DNA of 64,000 nt from Candidatus Goldiibacteriota bacterium HGW-Goldbacteria-1 (GTDB lineage: Bacteria > Oederibacteriota > PGYV01): assembly GCA_002839855.1 (NCBI GenBank), contig PGYV01000004.1:69556-133555 (forward strand), read 5' to 3'. The translations under genes were made by a program, and so were the position numbers. This document shows positions 47,752-60,183 of the stretch, piece by piece (position 1 is the first letter of the stretch; each line of letters begins with the position of its first letter). The notes below the pieces were generated by a model. The model was not told the origin of the DNA and did not search any database. It saw nothing but the letters and a program-made list of their open reading frames with translations.

Positions 47752-49524
47752 TTATATTTTTATTTTTCCTATGTAATCTTTTAACGGTTTGTCCTGAAGT
47801 GTTTCCGCAATAACTTCTTCAAGGGTGGTTCTGCCTTCTTTCATAAGCCTTATAGCGGATTCCCTTATGGTAAACATACCCTGGTCCCACGCTTCCCTTT
47901 TCAGGTCGTTCAATGTGCCTTTCTTGAAGATAATTTCCCTAATGCCCATGTTCACGGGCATTACTTCATAAGCGGCCATCCTGCCTTTGTATCCTGTATA
48001 ATGGCACACAGGGCACCCTTTGCCTTCAAAGAAAGTGCCGCCTTCAAGTATTTCCGGCGGAATTCCGCTTCTTTTTGCTTTTACCAGGTCAATTTCCTTA
48101 ATCGGTTCCTTGCAGTTTTCGCACACCTTTCTGACCAGTTTCTGCGCCAGAACAGTGACCACCGATGAACCTACATATATCGGGTCAATATTCATGTCAA
48201 TTAACCTTGTAATTGTGGCCGGCGCGTCATTTGTATGTAATGTTGACAATACAAGATGGCCCGTTAACGCGGCCTTTACAGAAGTGGACGCAGTCTCGTT
48301 ATCACGAATTTCACCGACAAGTATTATATCAGGGTCCTGCCTTAAAAACGACCTTAACACGTTGGCAAAAGTAAGACCTGCCACGGGATTTACCTGCACC
48401 TGTATAATGTGCGGAAGCCTGTATTCCACCGGATCTTCCGCTGTCATTATGTTCATGTGCGGGTCATTGATATGCGATATCATCGAATACAGCGTTGTGG
48501 ATTTTCCGGAACCCGTGGGGCCCGTTATAAGTATCATGCCATAAGGCGCATCAAGTCCTTTTTCTATGCCGGAAAACTGTTTTTCTGACAGGCCAAGTTT
48601 TGTAAGGTCAAGGTTCTGCGCTTCCGAATACAGAAGCCTCATGACTATATTTTCCCCCCACAGGCACGGAAGCGTGGCAACACGAAGGTCAATTGACTTT
48701 GTCCCGCCCGGTATTTTGTATGCTATCCTGCCGTCCTGCGGAAGCCTTTTTTCTATGATATTCAACCCTGCCATAAGTTTAAGCCTGGACGTCAGCGCCC
48801 TTTTAAACTGCACTTTTGGCGGAGGCATTTCCACAAGCGCGCCGTCTATCCTGAACCTAAGCACTATCTTTTTTTCATAGGGGTTAATGTGTATGTCCGA
48901 CGCTTTTTTGTTTACCGCGTCTTCTATTATATAGTTTACGTATTTTACAACAGGGCTGTCATTGCCTTCAATGTCGCCTTCTTCGCCATCTTCATCTTTT
49001 GGTTTTTTATCCTCAAGAAATTCAATTTCCATATTTTCAGATGAAAATTCAAGTTCTTTCATTGTTTCATCAAGGGCATTGCCTATAGGATAATACTTAT
49101 CAATGGCATCATTAAGCGAGGACTGCGTGGTCACCACAAAACTAAGTTCAAGTTCCTGGCCGCCCTTAATATCATATTTTAAATTCATGGTCAAAGACGG
49201 ATCCATGGGGTTTGCCGTGGCAAATATTATCTTGCCCGGCTTTTTTTCAATGGGGAGCAGTTTATATTTTCTGGCTATGTCAGGCGTCATGACTTTTATT
49301 ACTTCTTCTTCTATATGTATGGCGCTTACATCCACAAACTTTACGCCAAACTGCATGGCAAGAAAGTGATACAGCACGTCTTCCGTGATAAAGCCCAGTT
49401 TGACAAGGATAAACCCAAGCGAATCGCTTGTCTTTGACTGTTCTTCAACGGCTTTTTCAAGCTGTTCTTCCGTTACCATTCCCTCTTCTAAAAGAATCTG
49501 TCCAAGCTTTTTAGCTTCGTACAA
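47752..49524 (-). CDS. GspE/PilB-type secretion or pilus ATPase, copy B
   Basis: Cytoplasmic motor ATPase for type II secretion or type IV pilus assembly. 590 residues. N-terminal MshEN-like domain (about 1-150; known to bind c-di-GMP in relatives), then Walker A GPTGSGKSTTLYS near 330, Asp box, Walker B-like DPDIILVGEIRDNETA and the His box ALTGHLVLSTLHTND; the zinc-binding tetracysteine lies in CENCKEPI and GCPVCHYTGYKGR. The start is TTG with AGGAG 6 bases upstream. A Glu/Asp-rich linker near 160-185 (EDKKPKDEDGEEGDIEG) distinguishes it from copy A. Confidence 0.93.
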   Translation of the reverse strand: MYEAKKLGQILLEEGMVTEEQLEKAVEEQSKTSDSLGFILVKLGFITEDVLYHFLAMQFGVKFVDVSAIHIEEEVIKVMTPDIARKYKLLPIEKKPGKIIFATANPMDPSLTMNLKYDIKGGQELELSFVVTTQSSLNDAIDKYYPIGNALDETMKELEFSSENMEIEFLEDKKPKDEDGEEGDIEGNDSPVVKYVNYIIEDAVNKKASDIHINPYEKKIVLRFRIDGALVEMPPPKVQFKRALTSRLKLMAGLNIIEKRLPQDGRIAYKIPGGTKSIDLRVATLPCLWGENIVMRLLYSEAQNLDLTKLGLSEKQFSGIEKGLDAPYGMILITGPTGSGKSTTLYSMISHINDPHMNIMTAEDPVEYRLPHIIQVQVNPVAGLTFANVLRSFLRQDPDIILVGEIRDNETASTSVKAALTGHLVLSTLHTNDAPATITRLIDMNIDPIYVGSSVVTVLAQKLVRKVCENCKEPIKEIDLVKAKRSGIPPEILEGGTFFEGKGCPVCHYTGYKGRMAAYEVMPVNMGIREIIFKKGTLNDLKREAWDQGMFTIRESAIRLMKEGRTTLEEVIAETLQDKPLKDYIGKIKI

Positions 49525-49551
49525 TGCCGGCTCCTAAAAATTTTATTGTGC

Positions 49552-51255
49552 TTAATCCGCTGAAGTTGCCATTATTACTTCTTCAATTGATGTAATACCG
49601 TTTTTCCATTTTTCAAGCGCAACCTGCCTTAACGTCCTCATGCCGTCTTTCTGCGCCTGCGCTGTAAGGGCATTTAAATCAGCGCCGGAGTATATAAGAT
49701 CCGCAAGCGCGCCTGTCATTCCCATTATTTCATAAATAGCCACCCTGCCTTTATATCCCGAGCCATTGCACTTGGGGCAGCCTTCGCCTTTATAAAGTGT
49801 AATACCTTCCACTTCCTGCCTTTTTATCAGTATCCTCTGAAGTTCATCGTCAGTGGGTGAATATTCTTTTTTGCAGTTTGCGCATATCCTTCTCATCAGC
49901 CTCTGTGCCACAACCATTTTTAGCGCAGACCCCACATAAATGCGGTCAATGCCCATATCAATAAGCCTCATAATGGTGGAAGGCGAATCATTTGTGTGAA
50001 GCGTGGAAAATAAAAGATGGCCCGTCAGCGCGGCGCTTATGGCAATGCCCGCAGTTTCTCCGTCGCGGATTTCACCGACCATCATTATGTTCGGGTCCTG
50101 CCTTAAGCACGACTTTAATGCCGCGGCAAAAGTAAGCCCTATTTCGCTGTTCATCTGCACCTGTATGATACCGGGCAGCTGATATTCAACCGGGTCTTCA
50201 AGGGTGATGATATTCTTTTTTATGTCATTAACAGTGGATAAAGCGGAGTAAAGCGTTGTGGTTTTTCCGGAACCGGTAGGCCCCGTGTGAAGTATAAGGC
50301 CGTATGGAAGCGTTATGGATTCCTGATAAACGTCAAGTTCCTGCTGTTCGAACCCCAGCTTTGTAAGGTCAAGCATAAGGTTCTGCTGGTCTAAAATACG
50401 CATTACCACGTTTTCACCGTGTATGGATGGCAGTACCGCGACACGAAGGTCAATAATTTTGTTCTGAACTTTTATTTTTATCCTGCCGTCCTGCGCGGCC
50501 CTTTTTTCCATGATATCAAGCCTGGCCATAACTTTTATTCTGGACACAATGGCGTTCTTGTAATGATTCGGCGGTGTGGGCTGTTTCTGCAGTACGCCGT
50601 CCTGCCTGTACCTTATAACCGTACCCTTTGCCGTGGGATTAATGTGTATGTCGGAAGCTTTTATCTTTACAGCTTCGCTGATAATCGCGTTTACAAGTTT
50701 TATAACAGGCGCGGATTCTTCGGTTACCGACGGGTCGTCCTTGCCTGACATTTCTTCTTCAGGAACGCCGGCTTCATCCTTGAACATTGACTGAAGCCCT
50801 TCGTCCATATCAGACTTTGGCGTCACCCCATAAACCAGCGCAAGGCAGGACTTAATGGCGCTTTCACTTGTAATAACAAATTTAATTTCTTTTTCCAGCG
50901 GTATCGCGGAACGCTCCCTTATTTTGGTCACAAGGTGTTCATCGGGTTCGGATGTGGCAAAATAAATTTTATTGCCTTTTTCTTCATATGGAAGGATGGA
51001 ATATTTTTCAGCGGTGTCTTTTGAAATCACTTTCAGAAGTTCAGGGGGGGTGTCGTGCCCTATAAGATCCACATATTCAACGCCAAACTGTATGGCAAGA
51101 AAATAATACAACGCTTCTTCGGTTATAAAACCCATCCTTACAAGGATGCGTCCCAGGGGCTCCCCTGATTTTTGCTGGTCTTCAAGGGCCCGCTTTATCT
51201 GATCTTCTGTGATAAGGTTCTCTTCAAGAAGCAAGTCCCCAAGCCTTTTTGCCAT
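49552..51255 (-). CDS. GspE/PilB-type secretion or pilus ATPase, copy A
   Basis: 567 residues, same architecture as the gene that follows it: MshEN-like N-terminus (MAKRLGDLLLEENLITEDQI), Walker [17 protein letters not shown] near 323, Walker B DPNIMMVGEIRDGETA, His box HLLFSTLHTND, tetracysteine CANCKKEY and GCPKCNGSGYKGR. ATG with AAGGAG. The two ATPases are 27 bp apart. No inner-membrane platform (GspF/PilC), pilin or secretin gene is in the window, so the machine they drive cannot be named. Confidence 0.94.
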   Translation of the reverse strand: MAKRLGDLLLEENLITEDQIKRALEDQQKSGEPLGRILVRMGFITEEALYYFLAIQFGVEYVDLIGHDTPPELLKVISKDTAEKYSILPYEEKGNKIYFATSEPDEHLVTKIRERSAIPLEKEIKFVITSESAIKSCLALVYGVTPKSDMDEGLQSMFKDEAGVPEEEMSGKDDPSVTEESAPVIKLVNAIISEAVKIKASDIHINPTAKGTVIRYRQDGVLQKQPTPPNHYKNAIVSRIKVMARLDIMEKRAAQDGRIKIKVQNKIIDLRVAVLPSIHGENVVMRILDQQNLMLDLTKLGFEQQELDVYQESITLPYGLILHTGPTGSGKTTTLYSALSTVNDIKKNIITLEDPVEYQLPGIIQVQMNSEIGLTFAAALKSCLRQDPNIMMVGEIRDGETAGIAISAALTGHLLFSTLHTNDSPSTIMRLIDMGIDRIYVGSALKMVVAQRLMRRICANCKKEYSPTDDELQRILIKRQEVEGITLYKGEGCPKCNGSGYKGRVAIYEIMGMTGALADLIYSGADLNALTAQAQKDGMRTLRQVALEKWKNGITSIEEVIMATSAD

Positions 51256-52616: not shown

Positions 52617-54440
52617 ATGCTTAACAGAAAAGCAATAAGCCACCTTTCCAGCGGCTCTTATTATAAAAGAAAAAGGCTTGGTTTTATTTTTTGGGCCATA
52701 CTGGCTTTCATTGTGCTTGCCGGAGCTTTCCATTTTTTCGGAAAAAACCTTCAGTACGCCCTTAACGTAAAAAGCGGCGCCGCAAACCTTAAAAAAGGCA
52801 AACTTGCAGCCGCAACTTCAAATTTTAATAAAGCCGTAAATATAAAACGCGACGGAGCGCTTGCCATAGACGGCCTTGGCGCGGTGGCATTAAAACAGGG
52901 TGATTTTCAAAAAGCGGAAAAACTTTATACAGAAGCCATGGCAGCGGGTTTAAAACCAAACAAAACAATTAATCACTCTGTTATAGGAAATGAATTTATG
53001 GATGGAGGGCTTTACAGGTACGCCGAAACGGAGTTTAAGCACGCTGTTGCTTTAAACCAGTTTGACGCCGAAGCCATGTTCGGCCTTGGTTCGTGCGCGC
53101 ACGCGGCCACAAACCTTGACGAAGCCATAAAATATTACAATAAAGCGCTTCAATACAATCCCAAACTTTCCAAAGCCAGAAAGAATCTTTCCCTTGCTGA
53201 AGACGACAGAAATAAAGGGGCGATTTATTACATGTATGACAGAAACGGCGAGCCTTTAGCGCGGTATAACCTTATTCCGGGACAGGGCAAAAAAACCTAT
53301 ATCCTTGACCAGAGAGCGGCTCATATCACCGGTTTTGACAGCGAAAAAAGGCAGACAAAGGAAGGCATTGAAAAACACCTTGCGGAATATATTCCCGGCA
53401 ACAGGATTTACCTTACAATAGACTCCAAAATTCAGAACACAATAAGCAGGGCGCTTGGCTGGTATAAAGGCGCGGTTGTTGTTCTTAACCCTAAAACAGG
53501 CGAAATTCTTGGTTTATACAGCCAGCCCACTTTTAAACCAAACACAATAGACCAGGACTGGTGGGATGTGGTCGGTAACCGTAATAAACCGCTTTTAAAC
53601 AGAGCCACTGACAAACTTTACGAACCGGGTTCAATAGCTAAAATGATAACTATTGCAAGCGCCTATGAATACGCAATTGACCCCCAAAAAATATTTCCTG
53701 TTAAGTGTCCCGGGCACACATATTATGACAATAAAATTTTCTGGTGCTGGACAAAACACGGAAAAGTAAAATCAATAGAACAGACAGTTGACACTTCATG
53801 CAATATCGGAGCCGCGGAACTTGCCTTTGCAATCGGCTCGCCGCGCCTTACGGAATACAACACAAAATTTGGGTTTGGCCAGCAGCTGGACCTGGGTTTC
53901 ATGGATATCACGCGCAACGTAAGAATTTCAATACCCGTTAAAACAAGCTCCGCACCTATGAATGACCGTACTAAATTTGACCTTGCCATGCACGCATGCG
54001 GCCTGTCATATGAGGGCCACAACTATACAATTACACCGCTGCACGCCGCCCTTCTTGCAGCCACAATCGCAAACGACGGCGTAATGATGGACCCTTATAT
54101 GATAAAAGAAATCCGTAATATCAACGGAAAAATTATATATCAGGCAGCTCCGCGGGCTATTAAAAAACCCGTTACACCGGAAACCGCCGATAAAATTACC
54201 AGACTTATGATAGATTCCGTCGAAAACGGAATAGGCCAGAAAGCAAGGGTTAACGGCATTTCAATTGCCGGAAAAACAGGCACATCCGGAAAAAGCGGCG
54301 CGTTAAACGCGTGGTTTATTTCTTTCGCGCCCGCTGAAAATCCCGAATATGCGATTGCAATATGCGGCGATTCAGAGGGTAAGGGAATGTCCGTGGCAGC
54401 CCCTGTGGCCGGCGACATTTACAAGGATTTATTCAAATAA
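52617..54440 (+). CDS. Penicillin-binding transpeptidase with inserted TPR domain
   Basis: Peptidoglycan cross-linking enzyme of class B type. 607 residues: membrane anchor (about 21-42), TPR-like helical repeats (about 50-195), then a penicillin-binding N-domain remnant (YDRNGEPLARY near 208, AAHITGFD near 234) and transpeptidase domain with catalytic Ser339-x-x-Lys342 (EPGSIAKM), SCN at 394-396 and KTG at 553-555 (AGKTGTSG). The catalytic triad is complete, so it should be active and bind beta-lactams. TPRs between anchor and catalytic domain are unusual and suggest docking to a partner such as a divisome or elongasome protein. Confidence 0.9.
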   Translation: MLNRKAISHLSSGSYYKRKRLGFIFWAILAFIVLAGAFHFFGKNLQYALNVKSGAANLKKGKLAAATSNFNKAVNIKRDGALAIDGLGAVALKQGDFQKAEKLYTEAMAAGLKPNKTINHSVIGNEFMDGGLYRYAETEFKHAVALNQFDAEAMFGLGSCAHAATNLDEAIKYYNKALQYNPKLSKARKNLSLAEDDRNKGAIYYMYDRNGEPLARYNLIPGQGKKTYILDQRAAHITGFDSEKRQTKEGIEKHLAEYIPGNRIYLTIDSKIQNTISRALGWYKGAVVVLNPKTGEILGLYSQPTFKPNTIDQDWWDVVGNRNKPLLNRATDKLYEPGSIAKMITIASAYEYAIDPQKIFPVKCPGHTYYDNKIFWCWTKHGKVKSIEQTVDTSCNIGAAELAFAIGSPRLTEYNTKFGFGQQLDLGFMDITRNVRISIPVKTSSAPMNDRTKFDLAMHACGLSYEGHNYTITPLHAALLAATIANDGVMMDPYMIKEIRNINGKIIYQAAPRAIKKPVTPETADKITRLMIDSVENGIGQKARVNGISIAGKTGTSGKSGALNAWFISFAPAENPEYAIAICGDSEGKGMSVAAPVAGDIYKDLFK

Positions 54441-54499: not shown

Positions 54500-55312
54500 T
54501 TAAGGCCTGTTTTTTCCCTTATCCAAAATTGTGGCGAATAATTTAACACCTTTAAATCCTGACTTTTCAGCCAGTTTTACTTCTTTTATAAAGACATAAT
54601 GCGCTGAAACCATGTGATAAATCAGCCCTTCCACGCCGTCAAGAAAACCAAGTTTTAAAAAATAGTGTTTTAAAAAATATGACACAGGCTTTATTAAAAT
54701 TGTATATCCCGTTGCCCTTCTGCCGTTATGAACGTTCTTTTGCGCTTCCAGCCCCGTATATCTATTCACCGTATCTAAATGCGCTTTAACTCCGGGCTTT
54801 GTAAAATGCAGAAGCGCGTTTTTAAACTGCCCTGTCGTGCCGTTTACCTTAAGCCCTTCGTGAATTATCGCCCCTTCAAAAGAACCGGTATTTCTTTTGA
54901 AAAACCTTAACTGCCTGTCAGGATACAGCCCGCCAAAACGCAGAAATTTCCCCGTGTAATATAAGTTTTTCCTTGGGATATAATAGCCGTCACAAGGGCT
55001 TTTTGAACTGCTGATATTTATTATCTCTTCCGCCAGTTTTTCTTCTATTACTTCATCCGCGTCTAAAGACAGCACCCATTTGCCTGTGGCTTTTGATATG
55101 GCGTAGTTTTTCTGGTCGGCAAACCCTTTAAAATTATTATTATAAACTTTAGCGCCGCGCTTACGGGCTGTCTGTACGGTATTGTCAGTACTGCCGCCAT
55201 CCACCACTATTACTTCCCCTGCCCAGGCAGCGGATTCAAGGCACCGCGATATTATGCGCCCTTCATTCTGCGCAATTATTACTACAGAGACATTACCCGC
55301 GGTTTTGTTCAT
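54500..55312 (-). CDS. Glycosyltransferase family 2 (WaaE/KdtX-like)
   Basis: 270 residues, GT-A fold. VVIIAQNEGRIISRCLES near 10, EVIVVDGGSTDNTVQTA near 35 and the metal-binding LSLDADEVI near 82. The combination with YIPRKNLYYTGKFLRFGGLYPDRQLRFFKR (seen in part) resembles the LPS-core beta-glucosyltransferase WaaE group. It overlaps the preceding GT4 gene by 20 bp and ends just before the shared terminator. Confidence 0.9.
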   Translation of the reverse strand: MNKTAGNVSVVIIAQNEGRIISRCLESAAWAGEVIVVDGGSTDNTVQTARKRGAKVYNNNFKGFADQKNYAISKATGKWVLSLDADEVIEEKLAEEIINISSSKSPCDGYYIPRKNLYYTGKFLRFGGLYPDRQLRFFKRNTGSFEGAIIHEGLKVNGTTGQFKNALLHFTKPGVKAHLDTVNRYTGLEAQKNVHNGRRATGYTILIKPVSYFLKHYFLKLGFLDGVEGLIYHMVSAHYVFIKEVKLAEKSGFKGVKLFATILDKGKNRP

Positions 55313-56438
55313 TTATTATACCTTCTATCAGTGATGCCGTCTTATCCACCTGCGCTTTTACGGTAAAATTTTCTTTTACATTTTTCGCCGCCGCCCTGCC
55401 GGCCTTTATAAGCTGTTTTTTGTACTTCATTACATCAAGCAGTTTTGCAGCCAGCGCTTCGGCGGATACTTCTTTAACAAGATACCCGTTAACACCGTCT
55501 TTTATTATTTCAGGAGTACCGCCGGTATTAAACGCCACCACCGGCACCATCATTGAAGAGGCTTCAAGGGTTACCATTCCAAACGGCTCCGCGGGGGACG
55601 GAAGCACAAAAACATCAAAAGCGGGAATAAAAAGTTTTCTGTCGCCGTATCCGGCAAAGATAAAATTATTTTTAAGGGCTTTACCGGCCGCTTTTTCCCT
55701 TAGATACTTTTCATATTCTTCATCACCCTGTGCCCCTTTGCCGGCAATTAAAAACTTTATATTTTTACATTTTTTCACGGCTATTTCCGCGGCGTCTATT
55801 AGCAGTTCTATTCCCTTATTTCGCCTGAAAAAACCAACGGTACCGGCTACAAATCCGTTTTTAACGCCGTATTTTGCCCTTATCTTATCCCTTTGTGTTT
55901 TAGAATACTTCAGCGGGTCCATTCCATTATGAATTACTGCCATTTTTCCGCCTTTCACGCCCGCGTTTTTCATTGACCGCATAACCGCGCCCGAAACACA
56001 TATTATCTTTTTTACAAACATGGATAAAAACGCCGAGTTAAGCCCAAAATAAGAAAGGGGTTTTTTATCAACTATAATGTGCTTGTGCCATATCATTTTC
56101 ATGCCGGCAAAATAAGCGGGCATAGCCGTTAATTTAAGGCTTAAAAAACCATTTGCATATAAAAGTGAGGCGCCTGAATTTCTTAAATAGGCATAAGCGG
56201 CCTTTGCGAATCTGAAGTATGCAAAAACATACCTGTACCGGGGTTTTTTGGGCGCTTTTATGATTGTGTATTTTATTTTATTTGTTTTTAAAAGGGTTTC
56301 AAAAGGGCCCTCTTTCATCAGCAGAACTTCCACATCATACGTCTTTCTTAAACCCTTTAACAGGTTAAGCAGCACAATCTGGCCGCCTCCAATAAAAGAA
56401 AAATATTCCGCGAATATTATTTTTTTCTTACCACTCAT
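55293..56438 (-). CDS. Glycosyltransferase family 4
   Basis: 381 residues, GT-B fold. FSFIGGGQIVLLNLLKGL near 15 and the donor-site signature PSPAEPFGMVTLEASSMMVPVVAF near 278 (E-x7-E). A nucleotide-sugar transferase of unknown sugar, possibly for lipopolysaccharide or exopolysaccharide. Gene ends overlap both neighbours (20 bp with the GT2, 11 bp with the PorV-like gene). Confidence 0.9.
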   Translation of the reverse strand: MSGKKKIIFAEYFSFIGGGQIVLLNLLKGLRKTYDVEVLLMKEGPFETLLKTNKIKYTIIKAPKKPRYRYVFAYFRFAKAAYAYLRNSGASLLYANGFLSLKLTAMPAYFAGMKMIWHKHIIVDKKPLSYFGLNSAFLSMFVKKIICVSGAVMRSMKNAGVKGGKMAVIHNGMDPLKYSKTQRDKIRAKYGVKNGFVAGTVGFFRRNKGIELLIDAAEIAVKKCKNIKFLIAGKGAQGDEEYEKYLREKAAGKALKNNFIFAGYGDRKLFIPAFDVFVLPSPAEPFGMVTLEASSMMVPVVAFNTGGTPEIIKDGVNGYLVKEVSAEALAAKLLDVMKYKKQLIKAGRAAAKNVKENFTVKAQVDKTASLIEGIINEQNRG

Positions 56439-57438
56439 TTATTTTTGCCTTTTCTGTTTTTGTCACATCATCCACTTTGGCGAAATGCGGAAAAATATAG
56501 TCCGCGGTAATTCCAATTCTGTGGTTTGCCTCGCCGGGAAGTATGTTGTCGGGTTTAAAAGCGTAATCAAATTTAACATAAAATATTTCTGACGGCTTAA
56601 GCTTAATGCCTGCACCCGCCGTAATATTCTGCCCGTCAAATCCCATCCTGATTGCGGCAAAATCATTCCATGTAAGCTCGCCGCCGATAGCGCCTTTTAT
56701 ATACTCATAAGTGGAATAGAAAAAATCAGCCGAAGCCGAAAGGTTAAGACCCTTTACTTCAAACGGTTCTGCTGCACGCGCAGAGATACCGGCCGCGGCA
56801 GTTAACGGAATACTTTCCACCATAGTGGAATTATTCCAGGTAATAAAAGTGCTGATGTTGGAAACATTAATCCCCGCCTTTAACCATTCATTAATCAGCA
56901 GTATGGCTCCAAAATCAAAACCCGTACCTGAACCCCGCGTTTTTCCTATCGCTTCAATATAGTATCTGAAATTTCCGCCGACAAAAAGATTGCCGGCAAG
57001 GGTGGTTGCGGCAGTGAAGATAAAAACATTAACCGAATCGGAAATTAGCGATTCCGGTTCGTATGAATCGGTTGACCTTACCTCTATATCGCCGCCGGCG
57101 CTGTAATTGAACCAGGAAAATCCCACTGAATATATGTTTTTATGTATATCAAACGGCTTGCCTATTGATATATAATTTACCGCCCTGTCAAAAGACATAA
57201 GATAGGTTTCAGCGGACAGCTGAAGGTCAGGCAGAAGCACCAGCCCCGCCGGGTTATAAACGGCAGAAGCGGTATCATCAGCCGCGGCTGTATACGCGCT
57301 TCCCATACCTGTTGCCCTTACTCCGGCTCCAAGTTTGGTGTACGCTCCCGGCTGGCCGCCTTCCGCCAATAACAAAACGGATGCCGATATAATCAGCGCA
57401 CCGGCAATTATTGTTTTCTTAAAAATGGTTATAAACAA
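56428..57438 (-). CDS. PorV/PorQ-like outer-membrane beta-barrel protein
   Basis: 336 residues. Signal peptide (IIAGALIISASVLLLAEG) and then AYTKLGAGVRATGMGSAYTAAADDTASAVYNPAGL, seen in part: the GxRxxGMGxAxxAxADDxxAxxxNPAGL block of the FadL/PorV superfamily. The rest is alternating beta strands ending in a strand with aromatic residues. PorV is the outer-membrane shuttle of the type IX secretion system. The likely start is TTG (AGGAG 9 bases upstream). It lies directly after a protease that carries a C-terminal sorting-like domain. Confidence 0.8.
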   Translation of the reverse strand: MFITIFKKTIIAGALIISASVLLLAEGGQPGAYTKLGAGVRATGMGSAYTAAADDTASAVYNPAGLVLLPDLQLSAETYLMSFDRAVNYISIGKPFDIHKNIYSVGFSWFNYSAGGDIEVRSTDSYEPESLISDSVNVFIFTAATTLAGNLFVGGNFRYYIEAIGKTRGSGTGFDFGAILLINEWLKAGINVSNISTFITWNNSTMVESIPLTAAAGISARAAEPFEVKGLNLSASADFFYSTYEYIKGAIGGELTWNDFAAIRMGFDGQNITAGAGIKLKPSEIFYVKFDYAFKPDNILPGEANHRIGITADYIFPHFAKVDDVTKTEKAKINEW

Positions 57439-57456
57439 ATGTTTACTCCTGTCATA

Positions 57457-59001
57457 TCAGTATAAAACCGTTATTTTATTTTTACCTCTAACCGTGCCGC
57501 TGCTTACCGTAAAAAAATAAGTCCCGTTTCCGGCTTTGCGTCCGCTTGTGGTTTTGCCGTCCCATTTAACGTAATTGTAACCTGTGTACGCGGCTGAAAC
57601 ATCAACTGTCTTTTTCCATACAACATCACCCGCCGCGTCATAAATGGTAATAACAGTTTCAGCCGGGGCTGATAAGACATATGTGATGGTTGTGTTTCTT
57701 TCACGGTCGGGAGAAAAAGGGTTTGGCCAGTTATAAGTGCGCATTTCAACCGCCCTGTCAGGGTTTTCAGTCAGCGCCCTGTAGGCGTTTATCCTGCCCC
57801 AGCCGGTCTTAATGTCATAACCGGGGTCGCCTATGTCATCCGCTGACATCTGCATTATTTTTCTGACCCGTTCTTCTTTAATCCCGGGGTTTAAAAGTAC
57901 AACCTGCGCGGCAAGCGCGGACACAAACGGCGCGGAAAACGAAGTGCCATCCACGGATTCATAACCCGAATTCTTTGATGTCGTTGTAATACCCACACCC
58001 GGCGCTGTTAAATCAACTTTACCGTAGGTGGAAAAGTTCGCTTTATTATCATTTATATCGGAAGCCCCGACACTTATCACCTGTGAATAAGCGGCAGGGT
58101 AAATCTTCTCGTTTATTCCTGAATTTCCGGAAGAAGCTACAAGCACACACCCTTTTCCAGCGGCATAAGCCACCGCATTCTGCAGGGTAATTCCTCCGTA
58201 GCTGCCGCCAAAACTCATGTTTATTACGTGCGCCCCATTGTCGGCCGCCCACACGCAGGCGTAATAGATATCCGCATCATGGCCAAAACCGTCTTCATCA
58301 AGCGCCTTTATAGGCATTACTTTTATCAAAGAACTGCCATTGCTGTAGGCCGCACCTGCTATTCCATTTCCATTATTTGTATTTGCCGCAATTATTCCCG
58401 TCACAAGCGTTCCGTGCCCTTCATCCGCGTCATCATCCACATTACCGCTTCCATCAATAGCGTTTATCCCGTTAACTGTAGTGCCGATAATATCAGAATG
58501 TTCCCTTCTTAGACCGGTATCAATAACAGCAACAATAACCTGCCTGTTAAGCCCTGAAGTAATAAGCGATTCCTTGTAAACTTTGTCCTCTTCTATTTTA
58601 TTATAACCCCATTGGCTGCCGTTTTGATAATACGTATCATCAGGCCCGCCAGTAAGAGGAGTATACCCTGCTTTTCTTTTATAGTTTGGTTCCGCGTATT
58701 CAACAAAAGGAAGCGAGGAGAAATAGGAGATTTTTTCTGTGATATTAATGCCGTCCGGTACTTCAACACAGCGGATGTCAAGGGCGCTAAAGTGCGGCCG
58801 AATGTCCCTGCAGCCGCCTTCTTCAATAACAGAAACAATAAGGCTATCGCGTGAAGTGCTTTTCCAGCCGCGTTCTTTGGCGTAACTTTCCATTACAGAC
58901 GGTTCAAATACTTTTTTAAACCCTATAATTATGCTCTCTGCTGCCGTTAAAGAAAAGGCAAACGATATAAATACTATCAATAACGCAGCGGTTTTTTTCA
59001 A
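57457..59001 (-). CDS. Secreted subtilisin-like serine protease with FlgD-like C-terminal domain
   Basis: 514 residues. Signal peptide (MKKTAALLIVFISFAFSLTAA), I9-like propeptide region to about 108, S8 domain with Asp161 (VAVIDTGL), His196 (DEGHGT) and Ser354 (GTSFSAPF), oxyanion Asn293 (ASSGN). C-terminal about 85 residues (YNWPNPFSP...IYDAAGDVVWKK...WDGKTTSGRKAGNGTYFFTV) are a FlgD-like Ig/type IX sorting-like domain. It starts with TTG straight after the coaBC stop (TAA-TTG). Extracellular protein turnover or surface processing is the likely role. Confidence 0.9.
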   Translation of the reverse strand: MKKTAALLIVFISFAFSLTAAESIIIGFKKVFEPSVMESYAKERGWKSTSRDSLIVSVIEEGGCRDIRPHFSALDIRCVEVPDGINITEKISYFSSLPFVEYAEPNYKRKAGYTPLTGGPDDTYYQNGSQWGYNKIEEDKVYKESLITSGLNRQVIVAVIDTGLRREHSDIIGTTVNGINAIDGSGNVDDDADEGHGTLVTGIIAANTNNGNGIAGAAYSNGSSLIKVMPIKALDEDGFGHDADIYYACVWAADNGAHVINMSFGGSYGGITLQNAVAYAAGKGCVLVASSGNSGINEKIYPAAYSQVISVGASDINDNKANFSTYGKVDLTAPGVGITTTSKNSGYESVDGTSFSAPFVSALAAQVVLLNPGIKEERVRKIMQMSADDIGDPGYDIKTGWGRINAYRALTENPDRAVEMRTYNWPNPFSPDRERNTTITYVLSAPAETVITIYDAAGDVVWKKTVDVSAAYTGYNYVKWDGKTTSGRKAGNGTYFFTVSSGTVRGKNKITVLY

Positions 59002-60183
59002 TTACCCACCCGCTTTTATTATGCTGTCTATTATCACAGAGGCAAGTTCCTGCTTTGTACCGCCTCCCGAAAAAACCTTTTTCCCGTTTTTGGTAAAAAT
59101 AGTTATGGCGTTGTCATCAGATTCAAACCCGCGGCCTTCTTTTGATATGTCATTAAAGACTATCATGTTTAATTTTTTCCTTTTCATCTTTTCAACGGCC
59201 CTCTTTTCCCCGCCTTCGCTTTCCGCGGAAAAGCCCGCTATAAACTTTTTGCCTTTATTGGCCGCGGCCCAGGCTATTATGTCTTCGGTGGGTGTAAGTT
59301 TTATTTCAAGGCCTTCCCCCCTTTTCATCTTGCCTTTGTGCCTTGGCACAGTGTAGTCGCCGACGGCAGCCGCACCTATAACAATATCAGTTTCCTTAAG
59401 GTTTTCTTTAACCGCATCCATCATATCAGATGCAGATAAGACTTCCACGATTTTATCCGCCCCCGGAATATAGGATGTCTTACCTGTGATAAAAATAACT
59501 TTTGCGCCGCGCGTTTTTGCTTCCTGTGCAAGATAATATCCGGTTTTGCCGGATGAAGGGTTGGATATAAAACGGACATCGTCAATGAATTCCCTTGTGG
59601 GGCCGGACGTAATAAGTACTGTTTTACCGGTCAGGGATTTTTTTTTTAGCGCTGCCGTGACAGCAGACACAATTTTTTCCGTGTCTTCAATGTGGCCGTC
59701 GCCTTTGTCGCCGCAGGCAAGTTTCCCTTTTTTGGGGCCTATGAAAACATAACCCAGTTTTTCAAGCTTATTCACGTTTTCTTTTACAATTTTATTGTTC
59801 CACATGGCAGTATTCATCGCAGGCGCGATAAATACCCTTTTGCCGGACGCCGCCATCACCACCGTTGTTAAAAGGTCATCCGCAATTCCGGACGCTATTT
59901 TGCCGATTACATCGGCGCTTGCCGGCGCGATAACAACCGCAGCGCAGTTCTGCGCAAGGCCGATGTGCGTGACAGGCGATGAATGATTTTTAGATTCAAA
60001 AAACAGGTCATCGTACACGGGATTCCCGGACAGCGTGCGCAGCGTAAGCGGGGTGATAAATTCTTTAGCCCCGTCCGTCAGCACGCAGTTTACGTTAAAT
60101 CCGGAATCCTGAAACCTTCTGACCATGTCTGCCGCCCTGTATGCGGCAATGCTTCCTGTCACGCCAAGAAGTATCGTATCCAT
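59002..60183 (-). CDS. coaBC: Bifunctional phosphopantothenoylcysteine decarboxylase/synthetase
   Basis: Two steps of coenzyme A synthesis in one protein. 393 residues. CoaC domain (about 1-180): GVTGSIAAYRAADMVRR flavin site, HSSPVTHIGLAQNC with catalytic His, PAMNTAMW and ACGDKGDGH (catalytic Cys). CoaB domain (about 185-393): VLITSGPTREFIDDVRFISN and SSGKTGYYLA. Follows rpoZ by 3 bp in the order gmk-rpoZ-coaBC. Confidence 0.96.
   Translation of the reverse strand: MDTILLGVTGSIAAYRAADMVRRFQDSGFNVNCVLTDGAKEFITPLTLRTLSGNPVYDDLFFESKNHSSPVTHIGLAQNCAAVVIAPASADVIGKIASGIADDLLTTVVMAASGKRVFIAPAMNTAMWNNKIVKENVNKLEKLGYVFIGPKKGKLACGDKGDGHIEDTEKIVSAVTAALKKKSLTGKTVLITSGPTREFIDDVRFISNPSSGKTGYYLAQEAKTRGAKVIFITGKTSYIPGADKIVEVLSASDMMDAVKENLKETDIVIGAAAVGDYTVPRHKGKMKRGEGLEIKLTPTEDIIAWAAANKGKKFIAGFSAESEGGEKRAVEKMKRKKLNMIVFNDISKEGRGFESDDNAITIFTKNGKKVFSGGGTKQELASVIIDSIIKAGG

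Follow-up and report, generated by a model that had tools for sequence, protein, structure and literature searches.

Does a protease gene followed by the gene of an outer-membrane barrel, found in a candidate phylum outside the FCB group, belong to a type IX-like export system? The pair in question comes from Candidatus Goldiibacteriota bacterium HGW-Goldbacteria-1 and lies in a window of 64,000 nucleotides, the whole stretch of DNA that was analysed here. Type IX secretion is termed exclusive to Bacteroidota in papers of 2024-2025 (PMC12618676) or, if other FCB phyla have it as well, missing from every phylum beyond them (PMC11285876). A search of the literature outside subscription papers and preprints turned up, in the text available from it, neither SprA nor PorV reported from Goldbacteria, Firestonebacteria or Elusimicrobiota; in PMC7031533 and PMC8542988, type IX secretion comes up only among the references.

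The two genes are adjacent, 18 nt apart, just as the sequence-only reading had described them: a barrel directly after a subtilisin with a sorting domain (all features given here are on the reverse strand). The protease gene (57457..59001; 514 aa) has a TTG start immediately 3′ of the stop codon of coaBC (59002..60183; PF04127/PF02441), its direct upstream neighbor on the same strand. The product is an S8 subtilase. Its catalytic domain at residues 153-402 (57796..58545) matches Peptidase_S8 (PF00082) in a profile search with E = 1.5e-45, and inside this domain the catalytic triad D161/H196/S354 is intact within the motifs DTG, HGT and GTSFSAP. Residues 1-22, approximately, read by eye as a Sec-type signal peptide (58936..59001), and residues 71-106 (58684..58791) weakly resemble part of a fervidolysin-like N-terminal prodomain (PF22148, E = 0.002, 18.9 bits, below the cut-off of 21). 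The last 90 residues (57460..57729) form a type IX-like C-terminal sorting domain (CTD), which runs from a PNPF motif to a terminal K-ITVLY strand. The gap between the stop of this cargo gene and the start of the barrel gene (57439..57456) includes an AGGAG at 57446-57450, before the TTG start of the barrel (56428..57438; 336 aa). At its other end, the barrel gene overlaps by 11 nt a GT4 glycosyltransferase gene (55293..56438; PF00534), with which it is likely co-transcribed.

Scored alone, the last 90 residues of the protease match FlgD_ig best among the Pfam models (53.7 bits, cut-off 27). They also pass CHU_C (29.3 bits, cut-off 27) and, with a lower score than FlgD_ig, the type A sorting-domain model TIGR04183 (26.4 bits, cut-off 23). 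In the whole protease, CHU_C (25.1 bits) and TIGR04183 (21.8 bits) both come out slightly below those cut-offs. With the domain scored alone, the protease carries both a Sec signal, as read by eye, and a type A sorting domain.

The same domain recurs throughout the genome, where 68 ORFs have a sorting-domain match that runs to the end of the model, the model itself being seeded with 16 of the same cargoes and 6 from other genomes. In several ORFs it occurs more than once, and for 29 of the best 30 matches the stop codon lies no more than 12 residues beyond the end of the match. TIGR04183 is matched by 16/22 domains, the type B model TIGR04131 by 2/22, and the C-terminus of PorU by 18/22; three paired cargoes pass the cut-off of Pfam Por_Secre_tail. 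When the domain profile is compared to the PDB the best E-values belong to FlgD, but the FlgD alignments stop short, while those with the CTDs of PorU and of an F. johnsoniae cargo extend end to end. One ORF of 24,245 aa that ends in a sorting domain could be taken for a giant cargo; it has 72,000 N bases inside, and its length is an artefact.

The window barrel resembles the PorV family, and it is the putative shuttle or anchor of the protease. It matches PorV_fam (NF033709) with E = 2.5e-22 and 79.9 bits, under the curated cut-off of 90, and the PorV equivalog model with 18 bits only. Against a PorV profile built from this genome the E-value is 3e-80, with the barrel itself among the profile seeds, which were chosen among matches of an earlier PorV profile. 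The closest folds to its AlphaFold model (pTM 0.77) are those of PorV (8gl6_F, Z 32.4; 6h3i_F, Z 31.8), then CymD (30.9) and FadL (about 30). FadL channels superpose on the model at lower rmsd than PorV, and the BAM-complex subunits 9hiv_F, 9n2d_B and 9hjm_F share the fold. For the PorV-type assignment of the sequence-only reading, the nearest fold and the E-value speak in favor, the bit score and the closeness of FadL against.

This barrel is one of many. A profile search identifies 29 PorV-family barrels in the genome (31 matches before two split genes were merged, and including the short weak match C7:185578). The PorV_fam cut-off is exceeded by 17 other barrels, and one scores as high as 208.4 bits, with 94.6 bits for the PorV equivalog (cut-off 250). 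PorV-family barrels are present in all 45 genomes of the phylum, at no fewer than 6 to 42 places per genome.

How often does a barrel gene follow a cargo gene? For 13 of the 29 barrels, a sorting-domain match ends at most 600 nt upstream on the same strand. Since random placement gives a mean of 0.2 and a maximum of 3 in 5000 trials, the adjacency is not due to chance. Pairing is not the rule among cargoes: a barrel gene adjoins only 13 of the 68 CTD ORFs, which rules out a strict one-cargo-one-barrel rule. A Mantel test of domain distances against barrel distances in the 13 pairs is not significant (r 0.15, P 0.15). The nearest cargo domain and the nearest barrel point to the same pair in 6/13 cases, against 1.1 expected (P 0.0008), in a nearest-neighbor test picked after the Mantel result was known.

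The same arrangement is found in other lineages, Elusimicrobiota among them. In the flanks of 79 loci of named genomes, retrieved by SprA alone and including some near-duplicates, there are 23 PorV-like genes; 10 lie directly 3′ of a gene ending in a CTD and 18 adjoin one, as judged with a CTD model seeded only with cargoes from the genome studied here. As an example, locus L143 has a PorV-like gene, a CTD-bearing protease, LptFG and SprA in one row. Its protease is related to that of the window (E = 5.6e-67), and its barrel is absent from the matches of the window barrel.

No SprA gene is in the window, as the sequence-only reading had noted; the SprA/Sov translocon, of 2079 aa, is encoded on another contig. 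It reaches 205.9 bits for the NCBIfam equivalog TIGR04189, above the cut-off of 200 that identifies the translocon, and a profile of 15 relatives matches F. johnsoniae SprA (6h3i_A) with E = 1.7e-37. By this SprA the host is Goldbacteria-like. A strong match (E < 1e-50) occurs in 41 of the 45 phylum genomes, and in all 25 of those with completeness of at least 90% and contamination of at most 5%. Among the sources of SprA relatives are records with the names Goldbacteria, FCPU426, Firestonebacteria and Elusimicrobiota, and the SprA tree largely matches these groups. Thus the search that the sequence-only reading had proposed, for sprA and other CTD proteins, recovers a translocon, the 29 barrels and the 68 CTD ORFs; the refuting case it had named, a genome lacking every type IX component and any further CTD protein, clearly does not hold, and the type IX-like export pair is supported. 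About five genes upstream of SprA, a PorV-FlgD-OmpA fusion is encoded together with a TPR/TolB-like propeller protein, and this architecture resembles PorE split in two. A 220-aa one-helix protein before SprA, modelled as a possible part of a motor, has a mean pLDDT of 58.

Absences in this genome are stated for its sequence outside the stretch of 72,000 N bases. On those terms, profile searches find no match for GldL or GldM in the genome, and GldM is found in 0/45 phylum genomes and in 0/44 genomes reached via SprA loci (threshold 0.01), the searched genomes including none with a known motor. At least 14 of the 44 are also among the 45, from the 30 loci compared. The GldL search covered this genome and 14 control genomes. 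Allowing E-values up to 5, GldM has matches in 2/14 and GldL in 10/14 control genomes, all below the cut-off and at chance level. The only SprA relative in a plasmid collection belongs to a Parabacteroides record, with no gld gene within 45 kb of annotation. In F. johnsoniae the GldLM motor is required for release from SprA (PMC10994853), a need that counts against an export reading here, where no GldLM is seen.

As for the sortase, the sequence-only reading had suggested a search for porU, which yields no C25 peptidase of the PorU type here: the PorU profile has 39 matches, all inside profile positions 939-1095, that is, in the C-terminal domain only. C25 peptidases of this type occur in 4/45 phylum genomes. 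At L194 the C25 ORF itself carries a CTD, at L196 a neighboring ORF does, and the remaining two of the four ORFs are cut off by the ends of their loci. Whether the machine is full or simplified had been left open; because GldL and GldM are unmatched, GldM is at 0/45 with no genome of known motor among those searched, and PorU matches are C-terminal only, the answer tilts to a simplified or strongly diverged one.

We conclude that the pair probably forms a module of cargo and carrier in a type IX-like system for export across the outer membrane, a divergent one outside the FCB group. Established here are the families to which the sequences and folds belong, the SprA gene in the genome and the repeated cargo-then-barrel gene pairs, and the core of translocon, barrel and CTD is well supported; we infer the transport of the cargo and the specificity of the pair. 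The best reading is that many cargoes have their own PorV-type shuttle or anchor, and that motor and sortase are either lacking or not recognised. In such a system, Sec would deliver protease and barrel into the periplasm, and the barrel would insert into the outer membrane and dock where the SprA-type translocon opens laterally. The C-terminal Ig-like domain of the protease would enter SprA and bind the outer loops of the barrel, and the complex would then exit SprA sideways. Since a PorU-type sortase is not found, the CTD is probably uncleaved and the barrel would remain bound as an anchor at the surface; this would account for the many barrel genes that come directly after a cargo gene.

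Three other accounts have to be weighed. The CTD could be a generic FlgD-like Ig module that serves anchoring or stability and is no secretion signal. FlgD_ig being its best Pfam match fits this account, as do the multiple copies in several ORFs, but against it are the 29 of the best 30 matches that end close to the stop codon, the matches of most domains to TIGR04183 and to the PorU C-terminus, and the three paired cargoes that pass Por_Secre_tail; we regard it as quite improbable. The barrel, in turn, might be a FadL-type small-molecule channel or a BamG-like accessory, adjacent by operon chance to a protease exported otherwise. The score of the window barrel under the PorV_fam cut-off speaks for this, as do FadL-family barrels nearly equal and BAM-complex subunits alike in fold, yet 13 barrels after a CTD gene where 0.2 are expected, the recurrence of the pairing in Elusimicrobiota and other lineages, and the presence of SprA make it unlikely.

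More weight goes to a complete type IX system, in which GldL/GldM, PorK/N and PorU have diverged past the profiles and the pair is an ordinary cargo with a PorV paralogue; we consider this a real possibility while leaning somewhat against it. SprA is barely over its cut-off, and therefore faster-evolving periplasmic parts could be missed. The GldM search covered no genome with a known motor, and the PorE-like split architecture near SprA also agrees with a complete system. On the other side are the absence of GldM from both genome sets, which share at least 14 members, that of GldL from this genome, and the rarity of a C25 peptidase that the same method can detect in the phylum.

The divergent cargo-plus-carrier module may also be taken further, to a rather doubtful but specific proposal: a type IX export without motor or sortase in Goldbacteria and related phyla. 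The PorV-type barrel would be a single-use shuttle made with its cargo, pulling it through SprA by binding or folding energy (or with an energiser other than GldLM, for example a Tol- or Lpt-type machine whose genes lie near SprA), and would then become a permanent surface anchor. Such a form may be the ancestor of the motor-driven machine of Bacteroidota. If the motor is truly missing, the type IX core of SprA, carrier and tag is separable from later additions, and the source of energy for export becomes a testable question. One genome outside the FCB group combines dozens of tagged proteins with a translocon and 29 PorV-family barrels, which points to where the surface enzymes and adhesins of candidate phyla may be sought.

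As in the type IX systems of Bacteroidota such as F. johnsoniae and P. gingivalis, there is a SprA-family translocon, there are PorV-family barrels, and the cargoes have a Sec signal and a C-terminal Ig-like domain. Unlike in those systems, the host is outside the FCB group, and GldL/GldM and a PorU-type C25 peptidase are not found in its genome. In F. johnsoniae a single PorV serves the type A cargoes in common (PMC12618676), whereas 29 PorV-family barrels exist here, 13 of them adjacent to a cargo gene. Another parallel is found in the type B pairs, where sprF-like genes come directly after type B cargo genes in Flavobacterium (PMC12618676): in both, the gene directly after the cargo gene encodes an outer-membrane shuttle (SprF/PorP-like in F. 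johnsoniae), with several pairs per genome. Here, however, the barrel belongs to the PorV/FadL kind and the sorting domain is closer to type A. Poribacteria, for which Por sorting domains were described without Por structural genes (PMC3909097), are likewise a candidate phylum with many CTD proteins in which a complete system is not found; in contrast to them, the genome studied here has a SprA translocon and PorV-family barrels.

The sequence-only reading had placed a PorV-like barrel gene directly after the gene of a subtilisin with a FlgD-like sorting domain, and both genes are there, the barrel at 56428-57438(-) and the protease at 57457-59001(-). The protease gene starts with TTG immediately after the coaBC stop codon, the barrel gene follows 18 nt past it with a TTG start preceded by AGGAG, and the end of the barrel gene overlaps a GT4 glycosyltransferase gene by 11 nt. 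The protease belongs to the S8 subtilases and has all three residues of the catalytic triad; a PNPF motif opens its final 90 residues and a basic terminal strand closes them. Elsewhere in the window, we observe one protein of unusual architecture that joins N-terminal TPR repeats to a penicillin-binding transpeptidase domain (52617-54440(+)). Since tandem genes at 47752-51255(-) encode what by eye are GspE/PilB-type ATPases (47752-49524(-) and 49552-51255(-)), the organism probably has a type IV pilus or type II secretion system as well.

How close is this barrel to PorV? It scores 79.9 bits (E 2.5e-22) with the PorV family profile NF033709, whose cut-off is 90, and its top match among PDB sequences is PorV (6h3i_F, E 0.0055). 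An AlphaFold model built with 18 sequences (pTM 0.77, mean pLDDT 79.9) finds PorV first, both with Foldseek (8gl6_F, E 2.5e-11) and with VIA-align (8gl6_F, Z 32.4, 4.7 A over 276 residues; 6h3i_F, Z 31.8), and the VIA-align runners-up, CymD and FadL, have Z 30-31 and a lower rmsd than PorV's. By its predicted model, the protein is a FadL-superfamily barrel with PorV nearest, a fold that by itself is no proof of a shuttle role.

Scored as a separate domain, the end of the protease reaches 26.4 bits for TIGR04183 (cut-off 23), 29.3 for CHU_C (cut-off 27), and 53.7 for FlgD_ig; the whole protease reaches 21.8 for TIGR04183 and 25.1 for CHU_C. Because the domain matches all three, the name of a model cannot decide its kind. 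We compared a profile of 22 such domains, 16 from this genome and 6 from others, against PDB sequences. PorU (profile positions 2-89), 5m11, which we take to be PorZ (1-90), and an F. johnsoniae sorting domain (8glj_D, 1-87) align along almost the full profile; gingipain C-terminal domains cover positions 25-88, and FlgD chains align at most to positions 14-83. Nevertheless, the lowest E-values are those of FlgD (9.5e-9 vs. 5.9e-7 for PorU). Taken individually, the 22 domains match the PorU C-terminus (18), TIGR04183 (16), a FlgD model (16), and PorZ (15), and in Pfam they match FlgD_ig (18), CHU_C (11), and Por_Secre_tail (10).

The proposal of an export pair looked to the rest of the genome for type IX genes and for more proteins with the same C-terminal domain, and on SprA and the domain it holds up. 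The source genome has 2.86 Mb in 18 contigs, is estimated to be 100% complete, and contains at least one stretch of 72,000 N bases. Its sprA/sov gene encodes 2079 aa with 205.9 bits for TIGR04189, above the equivalog cut-off of 200, and all four stretches that match TIGR04189 are in this single ORF, a SprA family member by that curated cut-off. A profile of 15 SprA relatives matches F. johnsoniae SprA with E 1.7e-37. The protein has fibronectin type III domains close to its N-terminus, and directly after it comes a gene for a 1056-aa fn3 protein with a sorting domain at its end. The sorting-domain profile matches 96 places in 76 ORFs, with 73 places in 68 ORFs reaching the end of the model, and 29 of the best 30 matches, those checked, end within 12 residues of the stop codon. 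The 31 matches to the PorV family merge into 29 barrels, at least three of which form fusions with additional FlgD-like and OmpA-like domains (the OmpA-like part by Pfam in locus L064, by eye in L079 and L081). Judged by profile scores, barrels and cargoes belong, or nearly belong, to their families. An apparent giant cargo of 24,245 aa (contig C1, 223268-296005) was rejected as an artefact of the 72,000 N bases; only its end stretch, with the sorting domain, is real sequence. Other very long ORFs ending in a sorting domain are found in contigs C4 (5651 aa, L233-L234) and C16 (at least 4532 aa, L067:2-13600), the latter with a PorV-family barrel gene coming after it.

For 13 of the 29 barrels, a same-strand sorting domain ends no more than 600 nt upstream, compared to 0.2 under random placement (maximum 3 in 5000 trials). 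Re-counting with Pfam FlgD_ig, which was not seeded here, and 400 nt gives 8 of 29 versus 0.1. Several of the paired cargoes scanned are long surface-type proteins with TIG, Big, CARDB, FG-GAP, or carboxypeptidase-regulatory domains, and three of those scanned pass the Por_Secre_tail cut-off. Counting against a strict pairing rule, 55 of the 68 ORFs have no adjacent barrel. The barrel at L069:12444-13391, which scores 208.4 bits for the PorV family and has no adjoining cargo gene, may be a shuttle shared between cargoes. Co-divergence of the pairs in this genome is weak: a Mantel test of cargo-domain and barrel distances gives r 0.15 (P 0.15), and nearest neighbours agree in 6 of 13 pairs (P 0.0008, a test picked after the Mantel result).

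In 79 loci, from the best 80 of 163 SprA relatives in named records, the own-genome PorV profile finds 23 PorV-like genes, not all independent as some loci are close kin (L129, L130, L158). Ten are directly downstream of a gene whose product has the sorting domain at its end, 18 adjoin such a gene on either side, and five are at a contig end and have no upstream neighbour. Because these loci were fetched by SprA alone, SprA, barrel, and cargo are physically linked.

All 45 genomes of the phylum have PorV-family barrels, in 6 to 42 places each among the matches listed. SprA matches at 1e-5 in 44 of them (weakly and partially in three, G018, G021, and G026), and strongly (<1e-50) in 41, including all 25 that are ≥90% complete and ≤5% contaminated. 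The named records are from Ca. Goldiibacteriota/Goldbacteria, FCPU426, Firestonebacteria, Elusimicrobiota, Aerophobetes, Coatesbacteria, and odd one-off labels. In a rapidly built SprA tree with 74 rows, the named groups mostly hold together (8 label changes vs. a minimum of 7 for all groups together, leaving out 15 rows without group); FCPU426 and Goldiibacteriota intermingle, with this genome's SprA among both, and it is by this placement alone that we call the host Goldbacteria-like. The SprA of L118, a record titled Methylomirabilis, groups with Goldbacteria, and those of L135 (Sumerlaeota) and L143 (Clostridia) are among Elusimicrobiota; on these placements, the three bins may be mislabelled. 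A Parabacteroides distasonis "plasmid 23" (L193, NZ_OY725768.1) holds sprA, ruvA, dxs, and other chromosomal-type genes, and looks like a mislabelled piece of chromosome.

For the motor and the sortase, the outcome is different. GldL and GldM (PorL/PorM) profiles have no match in the source genome at E up to 5, GldL having been searched there. GldM is found in none of the 45 phylum genomes or the 44 reached via SprA loci (at least 14 are in both surveys), with a profile that matched nowhere at all, so these negatives do not establish absence. A search for PorU gives 39 matches, all within positions 939-1095, such that only the C-terminal domain of PorU is recovered. The source genome has no match to Peptidase C25 in a profile survey that is positive for 4 of the 45 phylum genomes. 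In those four, the gingipain/PorU-type peptidases (L194-L197) have the sorting domain at the end of the same ORF in L194 and of the neighbouring ORF in L196.

In Goldbacteria-type loci, the proteins encoded close to sprA include three candidates for supplying energy: a PorV-FlgD-OmpA fusion, a propeller protein that is TPR/TolB-like, and one TPR protein. The arrangement of the fusion and the propeller resembles that of PorE, divided over two proteins. In 47 of the 66 named loci with room (flanks of L113-L191), LptF/LptG-like permease genes (named by NCBIfam on one member and the own-genome pair) are no more than three genes upstream of sprA, and in 33 they are divergent and adjoining; this genome's lptFG pair is ~17 kb from sprA (L064:1473-3727). 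Both the PorE-like arrangement and the proximity of LptF/LptG may be mere synteny. In 37 of 61 named loci, comF-like genes occur at most two genes after sprA. Five Goldbacteria-type loci have, directly before sprA, a ~545-aa protein that by eye is methyl-accepting-chemotaxis-like (L113:1073-2704, L116:1354-2997, L117:541-2187, L118:8345-9991, L119:3224-4870), itself preceded by a conserved 220-aa one-helix protein; this genome's sprA has the one-helix protein and lacks the chemotaxis-like one.

We do not class the whole set as a type IX secretion system, because the PorU feature is not found here and a motor may or may not be present; it probably works like one. According to PMC10994853, in F. 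johnsoniae the sorting domain is bound to the outer loops of PorV inside the SprA pore, and release of the PorV-cargo complex requires the motor. In the absence of a PorU-type sortase, the sorting domain would stay attached to its cargo and a barrel would be consumed per cargo as an anchor, which would select for co-expression. Type B cargoes, as PMC12618676 describes, are served by SprF-like shuttles of their own, from genes immediately downstream, and type A cargoes use PorV. The pairs described here resemble the F. johnsoniae type B pairs in having the same gene order, cargo then shuttle, but differ from them in being made of PorV-type barrels and type A-like domains.
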